Assembly (NCBI RefSeq): GCF_002077945.1
Contig: NZ_LVYD01000043.1
Coordinates: 62,001 to 126,000, forward strand
Direction: 5' to 3'
DNA: 64,000 nt
From: Niastella vici
GTDB taxonomy: Bacteria > Bacteroidota > Bacteroidia > Chitinophagales > Chitinophagaceae
Shown: in pieces, positions 24,556-35,367 of the stretch
Position numbering within the stretch: position 1 is the stretch's first letter
Layout of the letters: the number at the start of each line of letters is the position of its first letter
The notes under the pieces: model-generated
The model's input: the letters and a program-made list of their open reading frames with translations, nothing else
Databases searched by the model: none
What the model was told of the DNA's origin: nothing
Made by a program: the position numbers and the translations under genes

Positions 24556-24577
24556 AGTCCCGCCACGCGGCGGGACT
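24556..24577. terminator. Terminator after the MarR gene
   Basis: Stem AGTCCCGCC / GGCGGGACT (9 bp, 4-nt loop) just after the MarR stop, with an upstream A run that makes it usable for the minus-strand transcript too. Confidence 0.82.
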
Positions 24578-24602: not shown

Positions 24603-24839
24603 CTATTTTATTATTATCTTCTGAAAGTGGTTCTCCCCATCTGCAAAGATCTTTATGAAGTAAGTTCCCTTGCCATATTGATGAAGATGATTTAAAGAAA
24701 GGGCATTGTTACCGGCGCTCAAATGTATTGGCTTCGATACCATTTTTCTACCATTAATATCCAACAGTTCAATTGAACTGGATTGCGCGCCGGTGGCAAT
24801 AATGTTGATGTGTGCTCGGGTAATTGACGTCATTAACAC
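24603..24839 (-). pseudogene. Type IX secretion C-terminal sorting-domain fragment
   Basis: The minus-strand frame encodes about 78 residues ending in a typical T9SS type A tail: 'IELLDINGRKMVS', 'LSLNHLHQYGKGTYFIKIF', '...HFQKIIIK'. Such domains are normally the last 70-80 residues of a large secreted protein. Here an in-frame TGA lies about 20 codons upstream of position 24839 and there is no signal peptide or passenger domain. So it is most likely the surviving 3' end of a lost gene, just downstream of the TonB-type gene on the same strand. A short translated orphan cannot be excluded. Confidence 0.6.
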
Positions 24840-24921
24840 CGAAAATATCAGAACGGCTGCCGGTCAAAGCTGAAGTAGGAGAGTTCGCCGTGGTGGCTAC
24901 CACAAGGGTAACTGCCAGGGT

Positions 24922-27618
24922 CTAGAAATAATAGCTCAGCCGCAGTATTCCCATGCGCCCCCTGATGTGGTACTGATCTATCATAAGTTGGTAAGGTGTT
25001 AAGGAATACAGGGTGTAGTTGGTAACATTAAACAAATTGGTGACAGAAAAGATCAGGTCCATTCTTTTGGCAGTATAGGTGGCTTTGGCATCCATAAAAA
25101 AGTATTGAACTCCGGTGCTGTTCGATTTATTGCTGAAGCTATGCCTGGCTGTTACTTCAATATTCGTTTTCTTCAGGGGCGCCGCTCCCAGCGACAGGTA
25201 CTGGTCAAGCCGGAAGGCATGATGCACCAGGCTGCCTGCCTTACTATCTGTTCCACTGGCGTGGGAAGTATTCCATGATCCCCTCGGTTCGTAAATAATG
25301 GTAATGGCAGGAGATATCTTTTTCATCAGTTTCGCGCTGAACAACAAGGCGTCATTATAACACGGCTGGGTAGTGTTGTTCAGGATCTGTACATACCTGA
25401 ACCGGCTCCATTGAGACTTCAGTGAAAGCGTTGTTTTGAGCTTGAAAAGATATTTACTGAAACCGGCCTTTAAAGACAACCTGCTTTGCGTGTTCCTGTA
25501 GGGCAGGAAGACCGTCTTTTGTATATTGTTCAGGAATTCAGTAGACAGGATGGTTTCTGCGATCGTTTTGTCAAAGCTGATGGCCGAATTGATGAATAGC
25601 ATGTTGATGGCCTTTTGGAAATTATAATTGGCCGCTAGCGAATGAGTGGCTTTCTGTTGCAGGTCGGCGTCTTTTGCATTGAATGTTCTATAATTTTCCA
25701 ATATTCCACCCCGGTATATTCCCGAGATGTCACTAAAGCTGTTATTGAACGTATAGCTGGCGCCCAGGTACTGCTCCGGATTGAGATCGTACCTGAAATC
25801 AGCCGAAGGGTTAAAGAGGAGATTGTTGTTCTTCGAATCCAGACCATATTCCTGCTGGGAATAATGGATGTTTTGATAAGTTACCGGTAACAGAATGGTT
25901 GATCTTATACTTTTGTATTTAACCTGGTATTCCGGTGTAAAATAAATATTGTTCCTGTGCCATTGCAGATTGTTGCCCGCATCTCCTGAATATGGGGTGG
26001 TTCCTCCATTCCTGATCAGCTCCAGTTGTGAAACCAGGTCCTGCGATTCAATAATATAACCCGCGGTATATTTCTGTGTAAGTATAGTGCCGGGCAATCT
26101 GTACCCGAGATACAGATGGGAGAATAATGCGGGAATGCGCAGGTTTTGAATGACATCATCGTAATAATCCTGTTGATTGCCTATCTCAAAATTGTATCCA
26201 CTTCCAATATCGAGGAATTGCCGATTCTCATTATAGCTAACAAGCCATCTTAACTCTCCGATACCCCTGCCCGGTAGTGATGGTATGTAGTTTATGTCGT
26301 TCGAGAAGTTTTTGATCTTTCTGTTTACGCCCTGGTTAAACGTGTTATCGTTGAATTGCATAAAGCTGCCGTTATCTTCATGACTAAGTTCAACTTTCAT
26401 GTTGTTGTTGAGAAAATACGGCTCTTTATTGATCATTATATTGAATGAAGCATTCAGCAACGAGGGCTTGTTGGTAAGATACTGTCGTTCCCTGAAAGAG
26501 ATGGTATCGTTGAGCAAATAGTTATCTGTTCTGCTCAGGTATTCCAGGTTATTCCTGTCGGTAAAAGCCTGCATATTTATTTTGAACTGAATATCATTCT
26601 TCGTTTTATAAAGATTGTTAAGGTTAATGATTTTGGAGTTATTGAAATAATAGTTGGGTAGGGGCAGGTCGGGCGGACCAATAGTGGCCATGGACAAAGC
26701 CATTTTAGGCGGCGTATTGTTGATCTCTGAAATGAAATTGGAAGCCCCCAACTGTTTAAAGTCGTCTGTATAGTTTACGCCGCTGTTGTTGAGCCCGATA
26801 TTATTGAGCGCCTTGATGCGGCTGTTCAACAATACGGCTGTTGCCGATGCATCGTACAGCCGGGGCAAGCCTGCGCCAATCATTCCGTTGACCGATAGCT
26901 TCAGGCTGTTTTCGTCTTTCAGTACCAGGTTGAGCGCTGTATTATCAGTTGGTATTTTATTCTTAAGCACTTTGACAGGCTGGTGGTTCATGATGATGTC
27001 CACGCTTTCAATCATCTCTTTCCGTATCACTTTGGTGGCAGCACCATATCTTCCGGTCATCAGGTCGTCTCCATGAATGTACAGGTTGCTGATCTTTTTC
27101 CCATTGAAGTAAACGGAGCCGTCGTCGCCAACTTCAATGCCGGGCATACGCTTCAGCACATCGCCGATGCTTCTGTCTTCTTTCCGCGCGAATTTACTGA
27201 CGTTGTAGTGCAGGGTATCGCCCGTTTGTTCAACCGGCGGTTTAGTTCGCACAATCACTTCGTTGAGAATGCCCGGATCGCGAACAAGTTTGAAATGATA
27301 AACATTTTGACCGGGTGAAAGGGCTATCCGTTGATTCCGGTGGCCTACATAGCTTGCTTCCAGCCAAAGTGGTAAAGCCGCTTCCCCGGCGGTCAGATTG
27401 AAGGTGAACGCGCCATTTTCGTCGGTAAAATCGTATTTTATGATAGTTGCTTTATCATTGACAAGGTTCACCGTGGCCGATGGCAGTGGTTTATTGGCGC
27501 TGTCACTTACAACACCGGTCAGTTTTCGTTGTTGGGCATAAGCAACAGGCGCCAAAAGGATAAGGAAGACAACGGCAGTAGTAACGAGCTGCCCGCGAAT
27601 GTATTTAATCCTTCTCAA
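24922..27618 (-). CDS. TonB-dependent receptor-like outer membrane beta-barrel protein
   Basis: The 898-residue protein has a signal peptide to about residue 29 (LAPVAYAQQ). A CarboxypepD_reg-like domain occupies about 30-115 ('KLTGVVSDSANKPLPSATVN', 'DENGAFTFNLTAGE'). A plug-like region follows ('NEVIVRTKPPVEQTGDTLHY', 'VLKRMPGIEVGDDGSVYFNG', 'ISNLYIHGDDLMTG') and then a long barrel ending '...GRMGILRLSYYF'. The 'GKKISNLYIHG' plug is the subtype that often pairs with GLPGLI proteins. The gene overlaps the upstream GLPGLI gene by 14 bp, so the two are translationally coupled. It probably transports or secretes an unknown ligand together with the other products of this operon; the small peptide encoded at 30245 is a candidate. 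Confidence 0.9.
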   Translation of the reverse strand: MRRIKYIRGQLVTTAVVFLILLAPVAYAQQRKLTGVVSDSANKPLPSATVNLVNDKATIIKYDFTDENGAFTFNLTAGEAALPLWLEASYVGHRNQRIALSPGQNVYHFKLVRDPGILNEVIVRTKPPVEQTGDTLHYNVSKFARKEDRSIGDVLKRMPGIEVGDDGSVYFNGKKISNLYIHGDDLMTGRYGAATKVIRKEMIESVDIIMNHQPVKVLKNKIPTDNTALNLVLKDENSLKLSVNGMIGAGLPRLYDASATAVLLNSRIKALNNIGLNNSGVNYTDDFKQLGASNFISEINNTPPKMALSMATIGPPDLPLPNYYFNNSKIINLNNLYKTKNDIQFKINMQAFTDRNNLEYLSRTDNYLLNDTISFRERQYLTNKPSLLNASFNIMINKEPYFLNNNMKVELSHEDNGSFMQFNDNTFNQGVNRKIKNFSNDINYIPSLPGRGIGELRWLVSYNENRQFLDIGSGYNFEIGNQQDYYDDVIQNLRIPALFSHLYLGYRLPGTILTQKYTAGYIIESQDLVSQLELIRNGGTTPYSGDAGNNLQWHRNNIYFTPEYQVKYKSIRSTILLPVTYQNIHYSQQEYGLDSKNNNLLFNPSADFRYDLNPEQYLGASYTFNNSFSDISGIYRGGILENYRTFNAKDADLQQKATHSLAANYNFQKAINMLFINSAISFDKTIAETILSTEFLNNIQKTVFLPYRNTQSRLSLKAGFSKYLFKLKTTLSLKSQWSRFRYVQILNNTTQPCYNDALLFSAKLMKKISPAITIIYEPRGSWNTSHASGTDSKAGSLVHHAFRLDQYLSLGAAPLKKTNIEVTARHSFSNKSNSTGVQYFFMDAKATYTAKRMDLIFSVTNLFNVTNYTLYSLTPYQLMIDQYHIRGRMGILRLSYYF

Positions 27619-28483
27619 GGGGATTGTATTGTTTTATTTTTATCACCTTCTTTGTGCCCGTGCTGTCCATGGGCAGAACAAATATTCTGGCTTCCGGATG
27701 TTCGGCAAGGATGATCGCTTCAGGGTCCTGATCGAACGAAGCCCTTGTGCGATTGTAGCTTTTTAAATTTGTAGTAATGGTGTATGGGTCTTTCAAAAAT
27801 GACATAACCGTTTCTGCTGAATCGTCGTTCCGGCTTATTCCCTTGCAGGTAAACACTACCTCGTTGTTTGTATCATGGGCTTCAAGTATAAGGCCCGGCA
27901 GGCCCTGCAGTTTCCAGGGACCATCCCGAAAAGGCAGATCGGGTGCAAACCAAACTTCATAATCCCGGCCCGCGTACCGGCCCAATGCCCGCTGACAGCC
28001 ATACTTGTCGATCGTTTTTCTTTCCGGCCGCAGCTCCCAGTTTATTTTGGGCAGTTCCGTCTGTACTGTATATACCTTGGAGCCGATGAAGCCGGTTGTT
28101 TCCAGTTTCCGTTTAGGAATATCTTTCATTATTTCCTCTCTGATGGCAACACCCGATCTGCCTACAAAAAGCGCCGGACCGCCGGCTACAGCTTTCACCG
28201 GCCTTGGTGCCGCAGCCGTCTGCGTTTGCTGCAGCTTCCTTTTGGCAATACTGTTCCTGTCATTATCCTTATAGTCTTTTTCTGTACAATAGCGGCTGGT
28301 GCCTTTGCCCAGCGATAATACCATGTTCGATATATAGGGATTGTCTTTTTGTGAAAGATCCCGAACGTAACTGAATTCATACACCACATTCAGCGATATT
28401 GATTCCTGGGCAAAGGAAACACCGGCGGTTATAACGAGCAAAATGCCCAACAGCAATCTTTTTGTTTTCATCGTATAAAACAT
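27605..28483 (-). CDS. GLPGLI-family periplasmic protein
   Basis: The 292-residue protein has a signal peptide ending 'AGVSFAQES'. Starts at ATG 28483 and ATG 28471 are both possible. The family name motif is present as 'WKLQGLPGLILEAHDTNNEV', preceded by 'RDYEVWFAPDLPFRDGPW', the best conserved part of this Bacteroidota-specific family (TIGR01200). Family function is unknown, but members lie next to TonB-type receptors with a carboxypeptidase-like domain, as here. Overlap with that gene is 14 bp; the CxxC lipoprotein gene ends 39 bp upstream of the start. It is the fourth gene of the leftward operon. Confidence 0.9.
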   Translation of the reverse strand: MFYTMKTKRLLLGILLVITAGVSFAQESISLNVVYEFSYVRDLSQKDNPYISNMVLSLGKGTSRYCTEKDYKDNDRNSIAKRKLQQTQTAAAPRPVKAVAGGPALFVGRSGVAIREEIMKDIPKRKLETTGFIGSKVYTVQTELPKINWELRPERKTIDKYGCQRALGRYAGRDYEVWFAPDLPFRDGPWKLQGLPGLILEAHDTNNEVVFTCKGISRNDDSAETVMSFLKDPYTITTNLKSYNRTRASFDQDPEAIILAEHPEARIFVLPMDSTGTKKVIKIKQYNPLEKD

Positions 28484-28522
28484 TTAATAAACAAAAATAG
28501 GCAAACAGCATTCGCACGCTTG

Positions 28523-29059
28523 TTATTCAGTATTCCGGATAATATGCAGGAACTGGTCCTTGTCCTTGTTGTTTTCAATCGGGTTACCGGTAAGCAATAC
28601 CTGGTCATGGGCATTGGTGAGGGCGGTAAAATCACCAGCTCTTGCCAGCGAACTGTTTTTGATGGCGAAGGAATCCTTTAGGTCCAGTACCAGTGGAAAA
28701 TGTATGTTGGGGAATTTATGGCTCTCAAACATAAACTTCAGCAACTCAAAATTATCCCTCGAATAACAAACGGGTATAATAGCAACTTTGCCAAAATCAG
28801 GGTCCTGCGATTGTATCTTGTCCCATCTCACCAGTTTTTCGAGACAGCTGGAACACGACACATTGATGAAGGCGTAAATTTTGTACTGGCTATTATCTGC
28901 TTTTAAAGTAACATTGTTTGTATCGGTTATATAGGGGTTATAAACTTCTGTTTGTGCAGGCATAACGATCTTTACGGCCGCATCAGCTGCTTTTTTGCGA
29001 TTAATACAGGAAGGCAGCAGCCAGATACTTAATAGCAGCAAGTAATATATAGGCTTCAT
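28523..29059 (-). CDS. Thioredoxin-like lipoprotein with CSSC motif
   Basis: The 178-residue lipoprotein (signal 'LLLLSIWLLPSC18') has a thioredoxin-like stretch: 'KIYAFINVSCSSCLEKLVRW' with C69-S-S-C72, then 'VAIIPVCYSRDNFELLKFMF' and 'FPLVLDLKDSFAIKN'. A thiol-disulfide role in the periplasm is therefore possible. The surrounding sequence is far from standard TlpA, so activity is not certain. Its ATG overlaps the TAA of the propeller gene (TAATG), which shows translational coupling. A neighbouring secreted peptide with four Cys is an attractive substrate. Confidence 0.82.
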   Translation of the reverse strand: MKPIYYLLLLSIWLLPSCINRKKAADAAVKIVMPAQTEVYNPYITDTNNVTLKADNSQYKIYAFINVSCSSCLEKLVRWDKIQSQDPDFGKVAIIPVCYSRDNFELLKFMFESHKFPNIHFPLVLDLKDSFAIKNSSLARAGDFTALTNAHDQVLLTGNPIENNKDKDQFLHIIRNTE

Positions 29060-30126
29060 TACTTTGTAAGTTTTGCAACGCTGATGAATTTAGACAGGGG
29101 ATTGTAAGTATATAACAGGGAATCATTGCGGGTAACGGCAAAATCTTTCACGTCGTTAGCCAGTTCCAGTCTTTGAACCGGTTTTCCGTCCCAGTCATAT
29201 ACGTAAATATATTTTCCATAGAACAAGTGTTTGGTGCCGTCTACATTGCCTGAATACAGCAGGTAAATAAAGTTGTTGGTCACTTCTCCCCGCACAAATG
29301 CCTGCCTGGTATTAGGTCCGCTGATGCTTATTTTTCTGCCATCACGTCCGCTGACTACTTTCATTTCAGGTTCAAATCCTTCCGTTCCTTTAACGACTAT
29401 TGATTTGCGGGAGTTCAGGTCTATGATTTCGATCCTGTCGGTATAGCGGCTGGCCAGCACACATTTGTCTTTTGAAGGCCTTACAAACAGAAAACTTTCG
29501 TAAGCCATTTTCTGGGCCCGGTTGAATGATGCGGAACTGTCAGGCGCATAAGGTGTCATTTGATTGGAGATTTGGCCATTCATAAGGTTTATGGTCGCAA
29601 TCTTGTAATCGTCTTTGGCGTCGTAATTTCCACTGGTCAGCAGGGTACTGTCGTTCAGTAATTGAACAGAGTAGTAGTGTCCGGGAGCTGGTAATTCCTT
29701 TATGAAATGATTGCTGCTGGTGTCCCGGAGGCTATCCAAACCTGTGCAAGTGATCTTTTCCTTGTTTACATCGTAGACCCACAAATAGTTATTTTCAAAA
29801 CCATACGAATGGAAGCCCAGTGCCTGGCCTTCTTTTCTTCCTGCAGGAAGCAGGGGATGAAGGAATGTCTTTTCTTGCAGGTGGTATAAAGCAAAATGAT
29901 ACCTTTTCTCGCCGTTGGCACTTACAAAATATAAAATGGAATCGTTGTGAAGATCAATAAAGTCGGGAGTAAATTCATCAATCTTGCGCAGCTCAACTTC
30001 ATCGAGCTTTTTTTCAACAGGAAAAGCTTCAAAATCTGTTTTTGATTGTTTGGGTGTATGGCTGTAGCAACCGGCAAAAAGGGTAACAGCCAATACATTT
30101 AAGAAAAGGCGTGTATTGGTAAACAT
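29059..30126 (-). CDS. BF3164-like six-bladed beta-propeller lipoprotein
   Basis: The 355-residue lipoprotein (lipobox 'VTLFAGC') is built of repeated beta-blade segments: 'EFTPDFIDLHNDSILYFVSA', 'YGFENNYLWVYDVNKEKITC', 'YSVQLLNDSTLLTSGNYD', 'NFIYLLYSGNVDGTKHLFYG', 'KYIYVYDWDGKPVQRLEL' and 'DFAVTRNDSLLYTYNP'. This agrees with the TolB-like propeller family named after BF3164. Such genes occur beside small secreted peptides and redox lipoproteins in Bacteroidota. Their function is not known. Two matching palindromes 27-65 bp upstream of its ATG (30154-30191) are probably its regulatory sites. Confidence 0.85.
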   Translation of the reverse strand: MFTNTRLFLNVLAVTLFAGCYSHTPKQSKTDFEAFPVEKKLDEVELRKIDEFTPDFIDLHNDSILYFVSANGEKRYHFALYHLQEKTFLHPLLPAGRKEGQALGFHSYGFENNYLWVYDVNKEKITCTGLDSLRDTSSNHFIKELPAPGHYYSVQLLNDSTLLTSGNYDAKDDYKIATINLMNGQISNQMTPYAPDSSASFNRAQKMAYESFLFVRPSKDKCVLASRYTDRIEIIDLNSRKSIVVKGTEGFEPEMKVVSGRDGRKISISGPNTRQAFVRGEVTNNFIYLLYSGNVDGTKHLFYGKYIYVYDWDGKPVQRLELANDVKDFAVTRNDSLLYTYNPLSKFISVAKLTK

Positions 30127-30153
30127 GATTAGTATCTATGTAGGATGAAAAGA

Positions 30154-30191
30154 TAATCAGTACTGATTAAATGAATAGTCAGTACTGATTA
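30154..30191. promoter_or_regulatory. Two spaced copies of a TAATCAGTACTGATTA palindrome
   Basis: TAATCAGTACTGATTA (30154-30169) is a perfect 16-bp palindrome. TAGTCAGTACTGATTA (30176-30191) is the same with one mismatched pair. Their centres are 22 bp apart, about two helical turns. They sit in the 118-bp gap between the peptide gene and the propeller gene. They look like a paired operator, or alternatively RNA hairpins that separate expression of the peptide from the rest of the operon. Confidence 0.65.
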
Positions 30192-30244
30192 TGTCAAATC
30201 TGGCGTGCCCGTTTTGGCACCGTCTTAATTTTTAGGAAACACTA

Positions 30245-30433
30245 CTAGTAACCGCAGCTGGTTGAACCAGGGCGGCAGTTAATAACTATAATGTTGCTGG
30301 TGCCGTCTGAAGTGTAACATTCGTCGGCGGCATTTCCTGTGTAAGCGCAATTGTAGGCTGGCTCAACTTGAGCGAATAAGCTCGCTGTAATGGATAAAGT
30401 TGCGAAGGCGATTAAAAGCAATCCTTTCTTCAT
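30245..30433 (-). CDS. Small secreted four-cysteine peptide
   Basis: ATG 30433 is chosen: it starts a clear signal peptide (MKKGLLLIAFATLSITASLF, A-QVEP) and gives 62 residues. An upstream in-frame start would bury the signal. The mature part of about 40 residues has Cys at 29, 39, 53 and 60, enough for two disulfides, and is rich in Asn, Thr, Ser and Tyr ('EPAYNCAYTGNAADECYTSD', ending 'RPGSTSCGY'). It resembles in size and place the small NVEALA-type secreted peptides next to BF3164 genes in Bacteroides, but the NVEALA motif is not present. It is the first gene of the leftward operon. A product could be a structural, signalling or antagonistic peptide; none can be shown from sequence. Confidence 0.72.
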   Translation of the reverse strand: MKKGLLLIAFATLSITASLFAQVEPAYNCAYTGNAADECYTSDGTSNIIVINCRPGSTSCGY

Positions 30434-30801
30434 TTTAATAAAGGTTGATGGTTGGTTAATGTTGCTCGTCTTGAATATTTTGCAGATATAGGGCGTACAG
30501 CAATTCTCCCGCATGGGTGCAAGCCAATTCTATGAAGATGTTAACATGCAATAAAAATAAATATTGCGCATAATATAGAAAAGAAAAAACCTGCTTAACT
30601 TTTTGCTTAATTTTTTGCTTAACATTTTTCGCATCTATAACGGTTAGTTTCAATTGGTTTGTTAAATCACGGCATTGATCACGTAATTACAGGAAGCGGC
30701 TGATTTAATTTTTTTCAATTCTTTATTGCTGATGGTGATCCCCGGATAAAAGGTTTGATTTATCTTAGTCAATATTATCTCCTACCTTAAATAATCGTTC
30801 A
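30434..30801. promoter_or_regulatory. Divergent control region with a 12-bp tandem repeat
   Basis: These 368 bp separate the leftward peptide operon from the rightward transglutaminase operon and must hold both promoters. Three copies of TGCTTAAYTTTT begin at 30592, 30604 and 30616, an exact 12-bp period. I could not place a perfect TTTG/TAnnTTTG promoter on either strand. A short minus-strand ORF over the repeat is not credible. Confidence 0.6.
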
Positions 30802-32358
30802 TTGAAAGCCGTTAACAATTTACTGATTGCAATAATCTCATTTTGCTGGGGAAGCTGTATGCGCCCTGCGCCAGCAGATATTGAACAGATCATAGCCGCA
30901 ACTTCCAATAAAAAGGAACTGATAAAGCTGATCAGCCATTACCAGCAACCGAATGACAGCCTGAAGCTGAAAGCTGCCTATTTTTTGATCAGGAATATGG
31001 ACGATCAGTTTCATCTGGCAGGTGAATCGGTGCAGGAATCCCGTAGAATTTTCAATCAAATGGATTCCCTGAACAAATTGGGTAAAGGCAGCGCCAGAAA
31101 AATATGGGATTCCCTGACAGCGTCATTGGGCCAACGGGTAACAACTACCCCCGATACTATTAAAGATATAGATATAATAACATGCGAGCTGCTGGTAGAT
31201 AATATAGATAATGCATTCAACGCCTGGAATTACCCCTGGGCCCGCCGGCTGAATTTCGATGACTTCTGCAAATATATACTGCCGTATAAATTAAAAAATG
31301 AAAGCCCTGAAAGCTGGCGGGTAAACATGATGCAGCGGTATGCCTGGGTGCTTAAAACTGTTAAAGACAGTGGCAGCCTTATAGAAGCAGCCTCTTTGAT
31401 CAATAATGATATCCGCAAGTGGTTCTATATCACGCCGAAATTCAACTGTGTTGGCGACCCTAACTGCGGCGAGTTGCTGAAATTAAAAGCGGGGCAATGT
31501 ATCCAGGCTGCTCAACTGGCGGCCTATGCTATGCGTGCCATGGGTATTCCCGTTACACTCGATTATACGCCCTTCTGGGCAAATAAAAGCGGCAGGCACG
31601 ACTGGAATAGTTTGATTTCCCCGCTCGGCGATATCACCTTTATGGGAGGCGAATCGGACCCGGGTTTTGAAAAAGTAGAAGACCCTGGTTACAATTATCT
31701 GGGCGCCACTCAAATGAAACGAAAGCGGGCAAAGATCTACAGGTACAGTTTTGAAAAAGTGACAGACACCATTAATGCCAGGCAGGTTGCTGATGTGCCC
31801 GTTTTTTTTCAGGACCATCATCACGAGGATGTAACAGACAGGGTTATTCCTGTTTCAACTATAACGCTTACGCTCGATACCATTCTGCCTCAACAGGGGC
31901 TGGCCTACCTGTGTGTTTTCAATAATAAACAATGGGAGCCGGTGCAGTGGGGAAAAACAGGCGCTGATAAAAAAGTGTCATTTGCCACTTTGGGCAGGGA
32001 TGTCGTATACCTGCCGATGATATATCGTAATAATGAATACTGGCCGGCAGCCGACCCGCTTATTTTGCACAGGAACGGAACGGTACGTACCCTGCATGCC
32101 AATCTGCAGCAATGCAGGGAAATAATAATAGTAAAAAAGTACCCTGAAGACCAGAGTAACAATATTATACCCGGTTATAACTACGAACTGTATTACTGGA
32201 ATAAAGAATGGATATCATTAGGAAAACAAATGGCAACGAAAGACTATCTGGTCTTTGATCATGTTCCTGAAAATGCATTGCTTTTTATCCGTAACCTGGA
32301 TGCAGGGTTCCAGGAAAGGATCTTCACGTTCGAAAACAAACAACAGATATGGTGGTAA
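30802..32358 (+). CDS. Transglutaminase-like lipoprotein, TTG start
   Basis: TTG 30802 is the only start that gives the lipoprotein signal ('AVNNLLIAIISFCWGSC19'); an in-frame TAG at 30766 and the lack of an ATG upstream support it. The 518-residue protein has a transglutaminase-like core at about residues 180-290 with a full triad: Cys233 in 'LKAGQCIQAAQLAAYAMRAM', His266 in 'KSGRHDW' and Asp277 in 'SPLGDITF'. Beta-rich segments follow to the C-terminus. It may act as a peptidase or cross-linking/acyl-transfer enzyme on the outside of the inner or outer membrane. It overlaps the CBM9-like gene by 10 bp. Confidence 0.85.
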   Translation: MKAVNNLLIAIISFCWGSCMRPAPADIEQIIAATSNKKELIKLISHYQQPNDSLKLKAAYFLIRNMDDQFHLAGESVQESRRIFNQMDSLNKLGKGSARKIWDSLTASLGQRVTTTPDTIKDIDIITCELLVDNIDNAFNAWNYPWARRLNFDDFCKYILPYKLKNESPESWRVNMMQRYAWVLKTVKDSGSLIEAASLINNDIRKWFYITPKFNCVGDPNCGELLKLKAGQCIQAAQLAAYAMRAMGIPVTLDYTPFWANKSGRHDWNSLISPLGDITFMGGESDPGFEKVEDPGYNYLGATQMKRKRAKIYRYSFEKVTDTINARQVADVPVFFQDHHHEDVTDRVIPVSTITLTLDTILPQQGLAYLCVFNNKQWEPVQWGKTGADKKVSFATLGRDVVYLPMIYRNNEYWPAADPLILHRNGTVRTLHANLQQCREIIIVKKYPEDQSNNIIPGYNYELYYWNKEWISLGKQMATKDYLVFDHVPENALLFIRNLDAGFQERIFTFENKQQIWW

Positions 32359-33509
32359 ATAAAAGAACAGCAATAGCCCTTTTAACACTGGTTTTGCTTA
32401 ATGCCTGCCGGTCAAAAATTAGTGTTCCGGTCAATCACGGGGAACCTGCGCTAATAATGGCTTCGACAATAACAGGTAATACGCACAATGCCATACCGCT
32501 GATAAATAAAAAATACAATAATAAACCCCGGCTGGCTGCGCTCGTGAACATACCTGACTATTGCGATACAATGCAGTCATTCACCATTAAGCAGGATGCA
32601 GCCGTGCAGGTATATGGGGTAGGAGAGCTGGTAAGGCCCCTTGCTCAGGTAAGAGCGCCTTATTTCCTGAAAAATGACGATCTGGAATTCTTCTTTCATC
32701 CTTCACAGAATGATCACCGTAATTACCTTTTCACTGCGGTGGAAGGGTTCATGGGTACTTCAGGGGCAAAGAAAAGTGCTATCACTTTTTCCAAAAAGAT
32801 CGATTCGACTAACCATACTGCTGAATTTTTAATTTCCATTCCCTGGAATGAACTGGGCACGCAACCCAAAGAAGGTGTTGAAATGGATTTTGATTTTGCC
32901 GTAGGTGATAACGATGATGGCATAAGGCAGGAAGGAAAGATCGGATGGCATACCGGTACCGATCCTTTAGTGGATCATATTTATAATTATGGTAAGCTCC
33001 GGTTAACCGCGAAAAAGGACCTTTCTTCACAACAGGATTGCATTTATAGTAAATATAAAACTACGGATACTTTATGCTGGGATAATATTCCGGCCACTGC
33101 CATTGAAAAGGTCATTGCCGGAGAGGTAAAAGATAAATATGATTGCGGGGCTTTGCTAAGATCGTGTTGGGATAAAAAAAACCTTTACTTTTTAGTGAGA
33201 GTATACGATTTTTTTATTCAGTATGAGCGGCGATACATCTCAAAAGAAAAAGTTTCCACCTTAAAAACTTTATGTGATTACGGTTATATCGAAGATGATA
33301 AGGGGCGCATTGTATGGGCAATGAGTGCAATGAATACCATACATGCCGGCGGTTGTGTCAAGAACCGGCTTGCAGATACGGTGATCAGTTTAAAAGCTGG
33401 CACCTACACATTGAAATATTCGTCTGATGAATCACATGCCTATGGCCATTGGGACGCCGACCCGCCCTTAACTCCTTTTTATGGAATTGTTTTGTACCAG
33501 GCAAACTGA
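32349..33509 (+). CDS. CBM9-like carbohydrate-binding lipoprotein
   Basis: The 386-residue lipoprotein (signal 'ALLTLVLLNAC') has two beta-sandwich regions like CBM9. The first shows 'KNDDLEFFFHPSQNDHRNYL', 'TAEFLISIPWNELG' and 'EMDFDFAVGDNDDG'. The second shows 'ATAIEKVIAGEVKDKYDCGA' and 'WDKKNLYFLVRVYD'. The tail 'KYSSDESHAYGHWDADPPLT' is a motif seen in sensor and surface proteins of this phylum. It is predicted to bind glycans without catalysis. It starts inside the transglutaminase stop region and ends 4 bp before the Wzy-like gene, so the three are one translation-coupled operon. Confidence 0.78.
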   Translation: MVVNKRTAIALLTLVLLNACRSKISVPVNHGEPALIMASTITGNTHNAIPLINKKYNNKPRLAALVNIPDYCDTMQSFTIKQDAAVQVYGVGELVRPLAQVRAPYFLKNDDLEFFFHPSQNDHRNYLFTAVEGFMGTSGAKKSAITFSKKIDSTNHTAEFLISIPWNELGTQPKEGVEMDFDFAVGDNDDGIRQEGKIGWHTGTDPLVDHIYNYGKLRLTAKKDLSSQQDCIYSKYKTTDTLCWDNIPATAIEKVIAGEVKDKYDCGALLRSCWDKKNLYFLVRVYDFFIQYERRYISKEKVSTLKTLCDYGYIEDDKGRIVWAMSAMNTIHAGGCVKNRLADTVISLKAGTYTLKYSSDESHAYGHWDADPPLTPFYGIVLYQAN

Positions 33510-33513
33510 AAAA

Positions 33514-35367
33514 ATGAATACCATCGATAAATTGTTAACACCGCTTGTTTTTCTCACTTTTGTTATTCTTTATGCTTACTATCTTTTCTATTACCCGTTT
33601 GCATTCAATTATCTATTGAATGAAAATGGCCAGTATTTCGCCGCCTTTGTAGCTTTATGTTGCTGGTTCGTAAGTATGTTGCTGTTCGTGTTTTCTAAAA
33701 AAAAGCCCGGTGTCAGGCAAAGCCTGTCAATGCTTTTGGTAAATGTATTTATCCTTTGCCTGTTATTCTGCCGTTACTACTCTTTTGCGAATGAGTATTT
33801 TACAAATATCACTGTTGTGATCCTGCTTTGTACGCTCTTGATGTGGACGGGTATACGAGTAGCGCATTTCCTGTTAATAGTTCTGGGAATTATGTTCTTC
33901 TGGCAATTATGCCTGGCCTTTGAACAGATGGGTGGATTTGCTCTCAACATTCAGAAACTGAACATCCAGGGAACATTGCAAAATTCGGGTGTATTCAGTT
34001 TTTATCTTGTCGCTCAACTTCCTTTCCTGTACTACCTCTTTTTTTCAATGACCGGCCTTTTCCCGGGTATGAAGCAGCCAATCATGCCCAAAAGGCTTGT
34101 GCAGTTATTGAAAGGTATAAAATGTATTGTTTTTGCCGTGGTGGTTGGCTTTGTTGTATTCATCGTGTGGCAATCGCAATCACGTACTGCGCTTTTGGCG
34201 CTGATCGTATTACTGCTTTATTTTTTCATACTGCATTATGGGAAAACAATAAAAGCAGTTATTTTAAAATTACCAAAGGTGCTTATCCTTACTGCTGCAG
34301 GAGTATTACTTGCCGCATTGGGTTATATGGCCTGGAACCTGTTTAATTTGAAAAAACTATCGGCACTTGGCCGCTTAATGGCCCTGGATACGGCAACAGA
34401 TCACCTCACCGATCATTTCTGGTTGGGAACAGGAATAGGCCGGTTCACCTGGTATTACCCACAATGGCAGGCGCAATACTTTGCCATGCATTCGGCTCCT
34501 TCAAGGGATTACTTCCTGAGTGCCGGCGAAAGTTACATCCTTTTCAATGAATATGTTCAGCTCTTTCATACGATCGGGCTTCCGGGTTTTATAATTGTTG
34601 CATTGCTTTTAACAGGGTTCTTTGCTGCGAAGTCGATCCGCCACGCCGACCTGTTGAATGCAGCCAAGCTTACGGCCACCGGCATTCTTGTTTGTGGGCT
34701 TAGTTCTTATCCGTTGCATGTAAACTGCATGCTTATGTTGCTTGCATTGTGTTTTGCGATCGCAGCGGTTGTAAATGAAACCAGGTACGCCTGGTTTAAG
34801 ATGCCCGGTCAATTATCCAATGCCCCTGCCAGACTGTTGCCTGCAATTCTCATCATACCAGCAGCAATAGTTGCTTGTCGGGCTTTCGGTTTATGGCAGG
34901 CAAAACAGGAATTAGATACACTGCGTAATCAGCTAAATGCATCGCGGACCGGCTTAAATGGAGAATATATCAGACTTATGGAGCCTTTTAAGTATAATGG
35001 AAAATTTTTAACTGAATATGGCATTTTCCTTTCAGAAGACAGTGCAGATTGCGTAAAGGCTTCCATTATACTGGAAGAAGCAAAAAAATATTTTATCTCC
35101 AGGATCACTATTGAAACGCTGGCAGAAGCATACAGAAAAAGCGGCAATCAAAAAAAAGCGATTGAAAATTATGAATGGTTGTGTCATTATTTGCCCAATA
35201 AGTTTGGAACGAAAGTGGAGTTATTAAAACTCTTCCATGAAACAAAGGACACCCTCAACGCCAGGGCGATAGCACATACAATATTGACAATGCCGGTAAA
35301 AATTCCTTCTACAGAGGTAGATAAGCTGAAGGCCGAAGCGGAAACTATATTAAACCACCTGCCATGA
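33514..35367 (+). CDS. Wzy_C/O-antigen-ligase-like membrane protein with C-terminal TPRs
   Basis: ATG 33514 follows the upstream stop by 4 bp and gives 617 residues; an earlier ATG at 33481 overlaps that gene and adds no useful sequence. About ten to twelve hydrophobic segments fill residues 1-450. The Wzy_C signature region is visible: 'SQSRTALLALIVLLLYFF', 'HFWLGTGIGRFTWYYPQWQA' and 'GESYILFNEYVQLFHTIGLP'. The last 130 residues are soluble and TPR-like ('TIETLAEAYRKSGNQKKAIE', 'YEWLCHYLPNKFGTKVEL'). The superfamily includes O-antigen ligases, polymerases and protein O-oligosaccharyltransferases. With no glycan synthesis genes nearby, glycan transfer to a secreted protein or peptide is a reasonable guess, not shown. 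Confidence 0.82.
   Translation: MNTIDKLLTPLVFLTFVILYAYYLFYYPFAFNYLLNENGQYFAAFVALCCWFVSMLLFVFSKKKPGVRQSLSMLLVNVFILCLLFCRYYSFANEYFTNITVVILLCTLLMWTGIRVAHFLLIVLGIMFFWQLCLAFEQMGGFALNIQKLNIQGTLQNSGVFSFYLVAQLPFLYYLFFSMTGLFPGMKQPIMPKRLVQLLKGIKCIVFAVVVGFVVFIVWQSQSRTALLALIVLLLYFFILHYGKTIKAVILKLPKVLILTAAGVLLAALGYMAWNLFNLKKLSALGRLMALDTATDHLTDHFWLGTGIGRFTWYYPQWQAQYFAMHSAPSRDYFLSAGESYILFNEYVQLFHTIGLPGFIIVALLLTGFFAAKSIRHADLLNAAKLTATGILVCGLSSYPLHVNCMLMLLALCFAIAAVVNETRYAWFKMPGQLSNAPARLLPAILIIPAAIVACRAFGLWQAKQELDTLRNQLNASRTGLNGEYIRLMEPFKYNGKFLTEYGIFLSEDSADCVKASIILEEAKKYFISRITIETLAEAYRKSGNQKKAIENYEWLCHYLPNKFGTKVELLKLFHETKDTLNARAIAHTILTMPVKIPSTEVDKLKAEAETILNHLP

Follow-up and report, generated by a model that had tools for sequence, protein, structure and literature searches.

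A four-cysteine peptide operon from Niastella vici and its possible place in a wider Bacteroidota peptide module

What is a 62-residue secreted peptide with four cysteines doing at the head of an operon with four other genes? The question is raised by the window, a stretch of 64,000 nucleotides (contig C43, positions 62001-126000) from the 10.06 Mb genome of Niastella vici, a member of the Chitinophagaceae. Five minus-strand genes encode, in order, the peptide, a PF15869 propeller lipoprotein, a lipoprotein with a CSSC motif, a GLPGLI protein and a TonB-type outer-membrane barrel. Comparison of co-occurrence, gene order and predicted fold places such peptides before a propeller and a CxxC protein, together with transglutaminase-like (Tgl) and Wzy_C or O-antigen-ligase-like (Wzy) proteins, and elsewhere with signal peptidase I and a regulator. 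We propose that a system spread across the Bacteroidota makes, oxidises and holds disulfide peptides, and that the window contains its form in the Chitinophagaceae; we see the case for and against this reading as evenly balanced. The five genes are:

30245..30433, minus strand: secreted peptide of 62 amino acids with cysteines at 29, 39, 53 and 60; one of a five-member family
29059..30126, minus strand: TolB-like six-bladed propeller lipoprotein of the BF3164 type (PF15869, E 2e-34; lipoprotein signal by eye)
28523..29059, minus strand: CSSC lipoprotein with a predicted thioredoxin fold, ResA/TlpA-like (AlphaFold2, Foldseek and homologues)
27605..28471, minus strand: GLPGLI family protein (TIGR01200 / PF09697; TIGR01200 E 5e-46)
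24922..27618, minus strand: outer-membrane TonB-type barrel with an N-terminal CarboxypepD_reg domain (E 9e-9) and a TTG start

Which of these genes travel with the peptide? A profile of three propellers had 21 matches in 16 of 394 genomes from the family, and with one metagenome-assembled genome (MAG; L119) this gave 22 loci, all of which we read. The full five-gene order is present in five of them, from four genera (the window, Niastella populi, G471, G457 and G559), a recurrence beyond what chance would give. A sixth peptide-bearing locus, L151 from genome G780, has the order peptide, TolB-like propeller, CxxC, signal peptidase I, Wzy, Tgl. The other 16 loci have no secreted peptide with at least three cysteines by the rule that we used. 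The CxxC gene was present at all six loci with a peptide and at none of the 16 without (Fisher p 1.3e-5), and the CxxC profile had no match even at E 10 in those 16. Wzy (4/6 versus 0/16, p 0.002) and Tgl (3/6 versus 0/16, p 0.013) also occurred only beside peptides, as did signal peptidase I, which is at one of the six loci, not the window (p 0.27 against 0/16). GLPGLI genes, in contrast, were found at 5 of the 6 peptide-bearing loci and 12 of the 16 others (p 1), and barrel genes at 5 of 6 and 10 of 16 (p 0.6). On these counts, CxxC, Wzy and Tgl track the peptide, whereas GLPGLI and the barrel do not: they go with each other and with the propeller. The p-values are uncorrected and ignore relatedness, and peptide-bearing loci contributed to the profiles for CxxC, Wzy and Tgl (five of the six for CxxC), so the informative part is the absence of these genes elsewhere. 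In a tree of the propellers, the CxxC gene goes with the peptide in the well-supported independent pairs, but there are two of these (four if all branches are counted), too few for significance.

A prior reading of this region (the sequence-only reading) had described five tightly coupled genes that look like a pathway to fold, bind and move a 40-residue mature peptide across the outer membrane. All five genes and their families are present in one direction, and both gene overlaps are real: a TAATG at 29059 joins the propeller stop to the CSSC start, and the GLPGLI and barrel genes overlap by 14 bases (27605-27618), as they also do in N. populi. The peptide gene does not share in this coupling. 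It lies 118 bases from the propeller gene, so this step is co-directional without translational coupling. The mature peptide is predicted to be one residue longer, at 41; the start given for the group, 24603, falls in a 78-amino-acid open reading frame (ORF) outside the barrel gene; and the reading missed Tgl and Wzy, whose genes are on the other strand beyond its coordinates. That reading had also made conservation of the peptide beside BF3164 and GLPGLI genes its own test. The peptide passed in part, with all five genes together at 5 of 22 loci, peptides enriched before propellers more widely, and a related arrangement at the NVEALA loci described below.

The prediction that the CSSC lipoprotein has a thioredoxin fold comes from modelling; the protein has no Pfam or NCBIfam match up to E 1. 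An AlphaFold2 model built from five sequences has a pLDDT (predicted local distance difference test score) of 75.9 and the strand-helix order of a thioredoxin, with the CSSC motif at the start of helix 69-85. The best solved structures in a Foldseek search were ResA, Etrx1 and peroxiredoxins (best, ResA at E 1.2e-5; TM-score 0.44 on the model and 0.55 on the target). We therefore predict a thioredoxin fold with the CxxC at the start of the first helix. The protein shares this predicted fold, the placement of the CxxC and, by eye, a lipoprotein signal with ResA, TlpA and StoA; it differs from them in having no family model and in lying beside peptide and propeller genes. Its relatives in Bacteroidales adjoin NVEALA peptides, and a Bacteroidaceae relative (L059) differs further from ResA, TlpA and StoA in carrying a C-terminal DUF1573 by Pfam; the relative in L060 aligns with L059 across that part. 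At another locus (L163, 631-3575), two cysteine-rich peptides are in a row with a 171-amino-acid membrane protein (MauE/DoxX-like by eye), a CxxC gene and a TolB-like gene, which suggests a membrane-linked oxidant for the peptides there.

Does the association extend beyond the Chitinophagaceae? PF15869 is present in 26 of 395 genomes from across the phylum. We read 40 regions and the window, which cover 44 of the 45 PF15869 matches (G301:C57, with stops, was left out). A PF15869-seeded profile, which also takes in more distant propellers, gave 59 propeller genes. A secreted peptide with at least three cysteines was present within 450 bases upstream of 20 of the 59, as compared to 10 of 197 other genes at the same loci (p 5e-8). 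With a rule of at least two cysteines, the counts were 28/59 and 13/197 (p 8e-12), and a stricter form of the test gave 18/59 and 11/320. These tests left out genes within 450 bases of a locus end and propellers under 250 amino acids; other genes were left out if under 250 amino acids (for 10/197) or under 130 (for 11/320). The propeller's neighbours in at least three genomes include CxxC (10 genomes), Wzy (7), signal peptidase I (5) and Tgl (4), some of them named by eye. Profile matches across the phylum are sparse for both Tgl (9 of 395 genomes) and CxxC (6 of 395). Gene order also recurs over long distances: Flavobacterium undicola (L122) has Wzy-peptide-TolB-CxxC, a Rikenellaceae MAG (L132) has TolB-CxxC-SPase-Wzy-Tgl-NVEALA peptide-TolB (SPase, signal peptidase), and the core TolB-CxxC-SPase-Wzy-Tgl is common to L132 and to L151 of the Chitinophagaceae, in which the peptide comes first. 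Judged from gene order and content, the core of peptide, propeller and thioredoxin-like protein is part of a module that extends more widely in Bacteroidota. The neighbours also include sigma-factor-like genes (9 genomes), efflux pumps (4) and HlyD-like adaptors (4), again with some named by eye.

The closest counterpart is the NVEALA family (PF14055), whose members, like the window peptide, are short secreted cysteine peptides whose genes immediately precede those for PF15869 or DUF5128 propellers, at loci that share homologous CxxC, Tgl and Wzy genes with the window. We found PF14055 in 44 of 98 Bacteroidaceae genomes, with up to 23 matches per genome, and in 3 of 99 genomes sampled from across the order. 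We chose 20 NVEALA loci from the 44 genomes, mostly the best matches and one region each (two of them, L172 and L176, are under 4 kb). A propeller was present in 19, CxxC in 15, Tgl in 11, signal peptidase I in 9 and Wzy in 7, where signal peptidase I and Wzy are common families and their counts come without a background rate. Neither GLPGLI nor a barrel of the window's type was found at these 20 loci. They contain 48 NVEALA peptides, of which 3 run into a contig end and 45 have a next gene. The next gene is of the PF15869 type for 27 (26 of them within 900 bases), CxxC for 4 and unassigned for 14. Of the unassigned genes, 12 are within 900 bases, and Pfam placed these as DUF5128 (9), DUF4221 (2) and TolB_like (1), although one protein may count twice. 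Thus, about 37 or 38 of the 45 peptides are followed by a propeller gene within 900 bases.

The NVEALA loci also have a membrane regulator, which is present in 17 of the 20 (e.g., L167 10390-11430), always on the opposite strand from the peptide genes and head to head with them in 16. By eye it has two transmembrane segments around a stretch of about 150 residues, and it has a C-terminal winged helix. PF00486 matched three of the five regulators that we scanned (E 1.6e-10 to 2e-5, two over the cut-off), matched one weakly and did not match the last. We did not find this regulator in the window or at the 22 Chitinophagaceae loci, and the window locus further differs from NVEALA loci in having no signal peptidase I gene. 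The window peptide itself has a cysteine framework of its own, and its signal peptide is plain, with no NVEALA stretch. It is not an NVEALA member, with no match to PF14055 up to E 1 and no Pfam match of any kind above cut-off; the peptides of L140, L149 and L150 did not match PF14055 either.

How might these proteins work together? The peptide would be exported by Sec and then cleaved by signal peptidase I. In the periplasm, the CxxC lipoprotein may make or reshuffle its disulfides, and the propeller would be the peptide's partner, holding or presenting it. Tgl, of a cysteine protease or crosslinking type, and Wzy, of a glycan or ligase type, probably modify or anchor the peptide. GLPGLI and the barrel would be a propeller-linked addition of the Chitinophagaceae, with a putative role in moving the peptide. 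An outward-acting peptide, either a signal or an antagonist, fits better than a housekeeping part, because the body of the peptide changes quickly on a fixed cysteine frame and because each Bacteroidaceae locus can have many peptide and propeller genes. Tentatively, and with more doubt than belief, we extend this to an undescribed Bacteroidota-wide system. In it, a thioredoxin-fold lipoprotein devoted to the task would oxidise the propeller-paired disulfide peptides, and Tgl and Wzy would then process them covalently or attach them (e.g., to glycan or protein). The cell would in this way display or release peptide signals or weapons from a repertoire that changes, and in gut Bacteroides the periplasm-sensing membrane regulator would be the switch.

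Besides the uncorrected p-values, the partly seeded profiles, the small number of tree pairs and the missing background rates, several observations weigh against the proposed peptide system. The propeller is retained at the 16 of 22 Chitinophagaceae loci that have no such peptide, 12 of them with GLPGLI, and across the phylum 31 of 59 propellers have no upstream cysteine peptide by the two-cysteine rule and 39 by the three-cysteine rule. At two loci without CxxC (L146 and L147), peptide-like ORFs contain 1-2 cysteines; we read these as decay, but they could be another state. At the NVEALA loci, the pairing is not always one to one, with three peptides to a propeller in L183 and two in L181, and CxxC is the gene directly after 4 of the 45 peptides. 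The locus is present in only 2 of 10 Niastella genomes. Finally, ResA-type proteins, the nearest solved folds of the CxxC protein, are generally reductants.

If the mature peptide were a bacteriocin-like toxin of related bacteria, the propeller lipoprotein could be its immunity or binding protein. The pairing of peptide and propeller in most Bacteroidaceae cases, the fast change on a fixed cysteine frame, the patchy presence of the genes (in Niastella, and for PF15869 across the phylum) and an HlyD-type adaptor beside one NVEALA locus are all consistent with it. But the peptide has no Pfam bacteriocin family (matches were sub-threshold, e.g., plant AtDEF-like at E 0.02), the annotated genes of the window include no export ABC (ATP-binding cassette) transporter, and both the propellers that persist without peptides and the peptides that share a propeller are awkward for a toxin with its own immunity protein, so we consider an antagonist unlikely. 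The peptide, alone or bound to the propeller, might instead be sensed in the periplasm and control gene expression, with the two-transmembrane winged-helix protein as the sensor in Bacteroidaceae. The frequency and head-to-head placement of that regulator, and its PF00486 matches (E < 1e-4 in three of the five scanned), point this way; two of the five have no good PF00486 match, though, and because the regulator is missing from the Chitinophagaceae loci, signalling through that sensor cannot be the general explanation. We rate it as distinctly unlikely.

The pathway of the sequence-only reading, in which the CxxC protein folds the peptide, the propeller binds it and the TonB-type barrel moves it across the outer membrane, splits on the comparative evidence, since CxxC, Wzy and Tgl track the peptide while GLPGLI and the barrel do not. 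Its folding and binding steps gain from the predicted thioredoxin fold, from the presence of CxxC at 6 of 6 loci versus 0 of 16 and from the pairing of peptides with propellers. The five-gene order with its tight spacing in five genomes, and the 14-base GLPGLI-barrel overlap kept in N. populi, would favour the whole pathway. However, loci without the peptide have GLPGLI and the barrel at about the same frequency as loci with it, so there is no comparative support for the barrel moving the peptide. Both genes are missing from the 20 Bacteroidaceae loci. L151 has neither by profile, and with an iterated profile its distant barrel gene is 3.4 kb off and on the other strand (E 5e-32). The full pathway therefore seems quite improbable to us. 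Could the operon instead be two unrelated units, with TolB-GLPGLI-barrel serving in uptake or in the envelope, and peptide-CxxC as a passenger pair? In 10 of the 16 peptide-less Chitinophagaceae loci, the barrel and GLPGLI do lie by the propeller without peptide or CxxC. But peptide-TolB-CxxC occurs without GLPGLI or barrel in F. undicola (L122) and in Bacteroidaceae (L060, L168), and the window's CxxC gene sits inside the operon, between TolB and GLPGLI and joined by the TAATG overlap. Of the explanations that we considered, we give this one the least credence, and we favour a system for making, oxidising and holding peptides.

Such a system would link an operon from an environmental bacterium to the NVEALA peptides, through related propeller, thioredoxin, transglutaminase and Wzy partners. 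The NVEALA peptides would gain candidate maturation enzymes, with a purpose that is testable in Bacteroides thetaiotaomicron or N. populi, and relatives of the core gene set are present in distant Bacteroidota, including gut Bacteroides. We did not find a paper that describes the module in the literature searched, whose scope did not extend to preprints or most subscription journals. In that literature there was also no relevant paper for NVEALA, PF14055 or PF15869; the papers that came up for the string PF14055 are on Plasmodium or on methods. For B. thetaiotaomicron, tables in PMC10434189 name BT0662 as an O-antigen ligase, BT0663 as hypothetical, BT0664 as a 6-bladed propeller, BT0667 as signal peptidase I and BT0669 as a resistance-nodulation-division (RND) adaptor. 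These are similar gene types, close to each other by number, and judging from the table names a model strain seems to carry this gene set too; the tables give expression values and do not describe a system. BF3164 is one entry in a table that lists group-specific proteins (PMC1887533, from 2007), and GLPGLI appears in the expression tables and discussion of PMC9603813 and is mentioned in PMC8757827 and PMC5771137.

Turning to the individual proteins, residues 1-21 of the peptide read as a signal peptide, with the cleavage site placed by eye, and the predicted mature form begins with Gln, which agrees with the Q-rule of Bacteroidetes as outlined in PMC5837995. The five relatives (window, N. populi, G471, G457 and G559) share the framework C-x9-C-x(9-13)-C-x(6-8)-C, and those from G471, G457 and G559 occupy the same place at their loci as in the window. 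The N. populi relative is 41% identical (24/58 residues). The peptide is the least conserved of the products that we compared between the two genomes: its identity of 0.41 is below that of CSSC (0.48), GLPGLI (0.57), Wzy (0.57), the propeller (0.58) and the barrel (0.66).

The DNA just upstream of the peptide gene is very different in this respect:

30434..30513, minus strand: 5' leader of the peptide gene, near-identical in N. populi; a short ORF that begins upstream may end within it

The leader is identical to N. populi at 75 of 78 bases, versus 85 of 174 (49%) for the peptide's coding DNA. It is not a genus-wide repeat, as there is a single copy in each of these two genomes and none in the other eight Niastella genomes. 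Nor does it appear to be a structured RNA, as neither leader folds better than its shuffled versions (z 1.2 and 0.39). One frame is open in both genomes, with a 3-base indel inside and a near-identical block that has only a synonymous change. This possible ORF would stop about 23 bases before the peptide's ATG. Because the nearest upstream indel in the frame is 3 bases long and a 2-base indel falls after the stop, the leader may contain a short ORF; it may also be a promoter or operator, or an RNA target. Downstream of the peptide gene, in the gap before the propeller, an inverted repeat at 30205-30220 (5-pair arms, 6-base loop) could set the ratio of peptide to propeller.

The propeller scores 119.7 bits against the PF15869 cut-off of 29.2, which makes it a member of the TolB_like or BF3164 family; the N. 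populi propeller is 58% identical to it. Pairs of GLPGLI and TonB-type barrel genes are frequent in Bacteroidota. The window has both, adjacent to each other (GLPGLI scores 157.2 bits against the TIGR01200 cut-off of 50), and differs from a plain pair by the preceding propeller and, in five genomes, by the CxxC and peptide genes. A PF15869 propeller followed by GLPGLI and a barrel is common in the Chitinophagaceae and was not seen at the 20 Bacteroidaceae loci. The barrel matches Plug below the cut-off (E 0.14), and its model is poor, with a pLDDT of 46 and long strands.

Three ORFs that overlap successively diverge from the peptide operon:

30802..32358, plus strand: transglutaminase-like protein, Tgl (PF01841); Bacteroidales members of its family adjoin the peptides
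32349..33509, plus strand: CBM9-like protein (PF06452), lipoprotein by eye; its membership in the system is unsure
33481..35367, plus strand: Wzy_C / O-antigen-ligase-like membrane protein (PF04932, scanned from 33514)

Tgl scores 25.5 bits against the PF01841 cut-off of 23, and its presumed active-site residues Cys233 and His266 are invariant in 7 of 7 sequences. Positions 446-504 of the Tgl-family profile match solved chains named "carbohydrate binding family 6" (2yb7, which we take to be CBM62), so carbohydrate contact is plausible for the longer Bacteroidales forms that have this part. The window's Tgl aligns only to profile positions 2-429 and 549-633 and so is without it. Seven loci (L154 and L156-L161) have Wzy and Tgl without a recognised peptide, so this pair has other uses as well. 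At some of L156-L161, all from Bacteroidota, the pair is beside secreted-looking proteins of 420-520 amino acids.

Behind the barrel gene, the 78-amino-acid ORF at 24606-24839 (minus strand) is separate from the barrel gene and matches a sorting domain of the type IX secretion system (T9SS), type A (TIGR04183, E 5e-10). With stops just upstream in frame, it resembles a remnant or else a small protein with a frameshift. Among the listed ORFs of N. populi, none of at least 50 amino acids behind the barrel is of this sorting type, and the window peptide has no sorting-domain match, so by that test it is not type A cargo. Further out is a hairpin:

24556..24577, either strand: terminator-like hairpin, bidirectional, between the barrel's end and a MarR-type gene (pattern match)

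It has 9 pairs and reads on both strands; the count of such sites, however, is 8, close to the shuffled mean of 6.8.

N. populi has a second peptide locus (L026, 1010-3303), with four small secreted peptides with CxC...CxC motifs and a 402-amino-acid lipoprotein that has no Pfam match and is propeller-like by eye. This locus diverges from genes for a DUF1573 protein and another Wzy_C protein.

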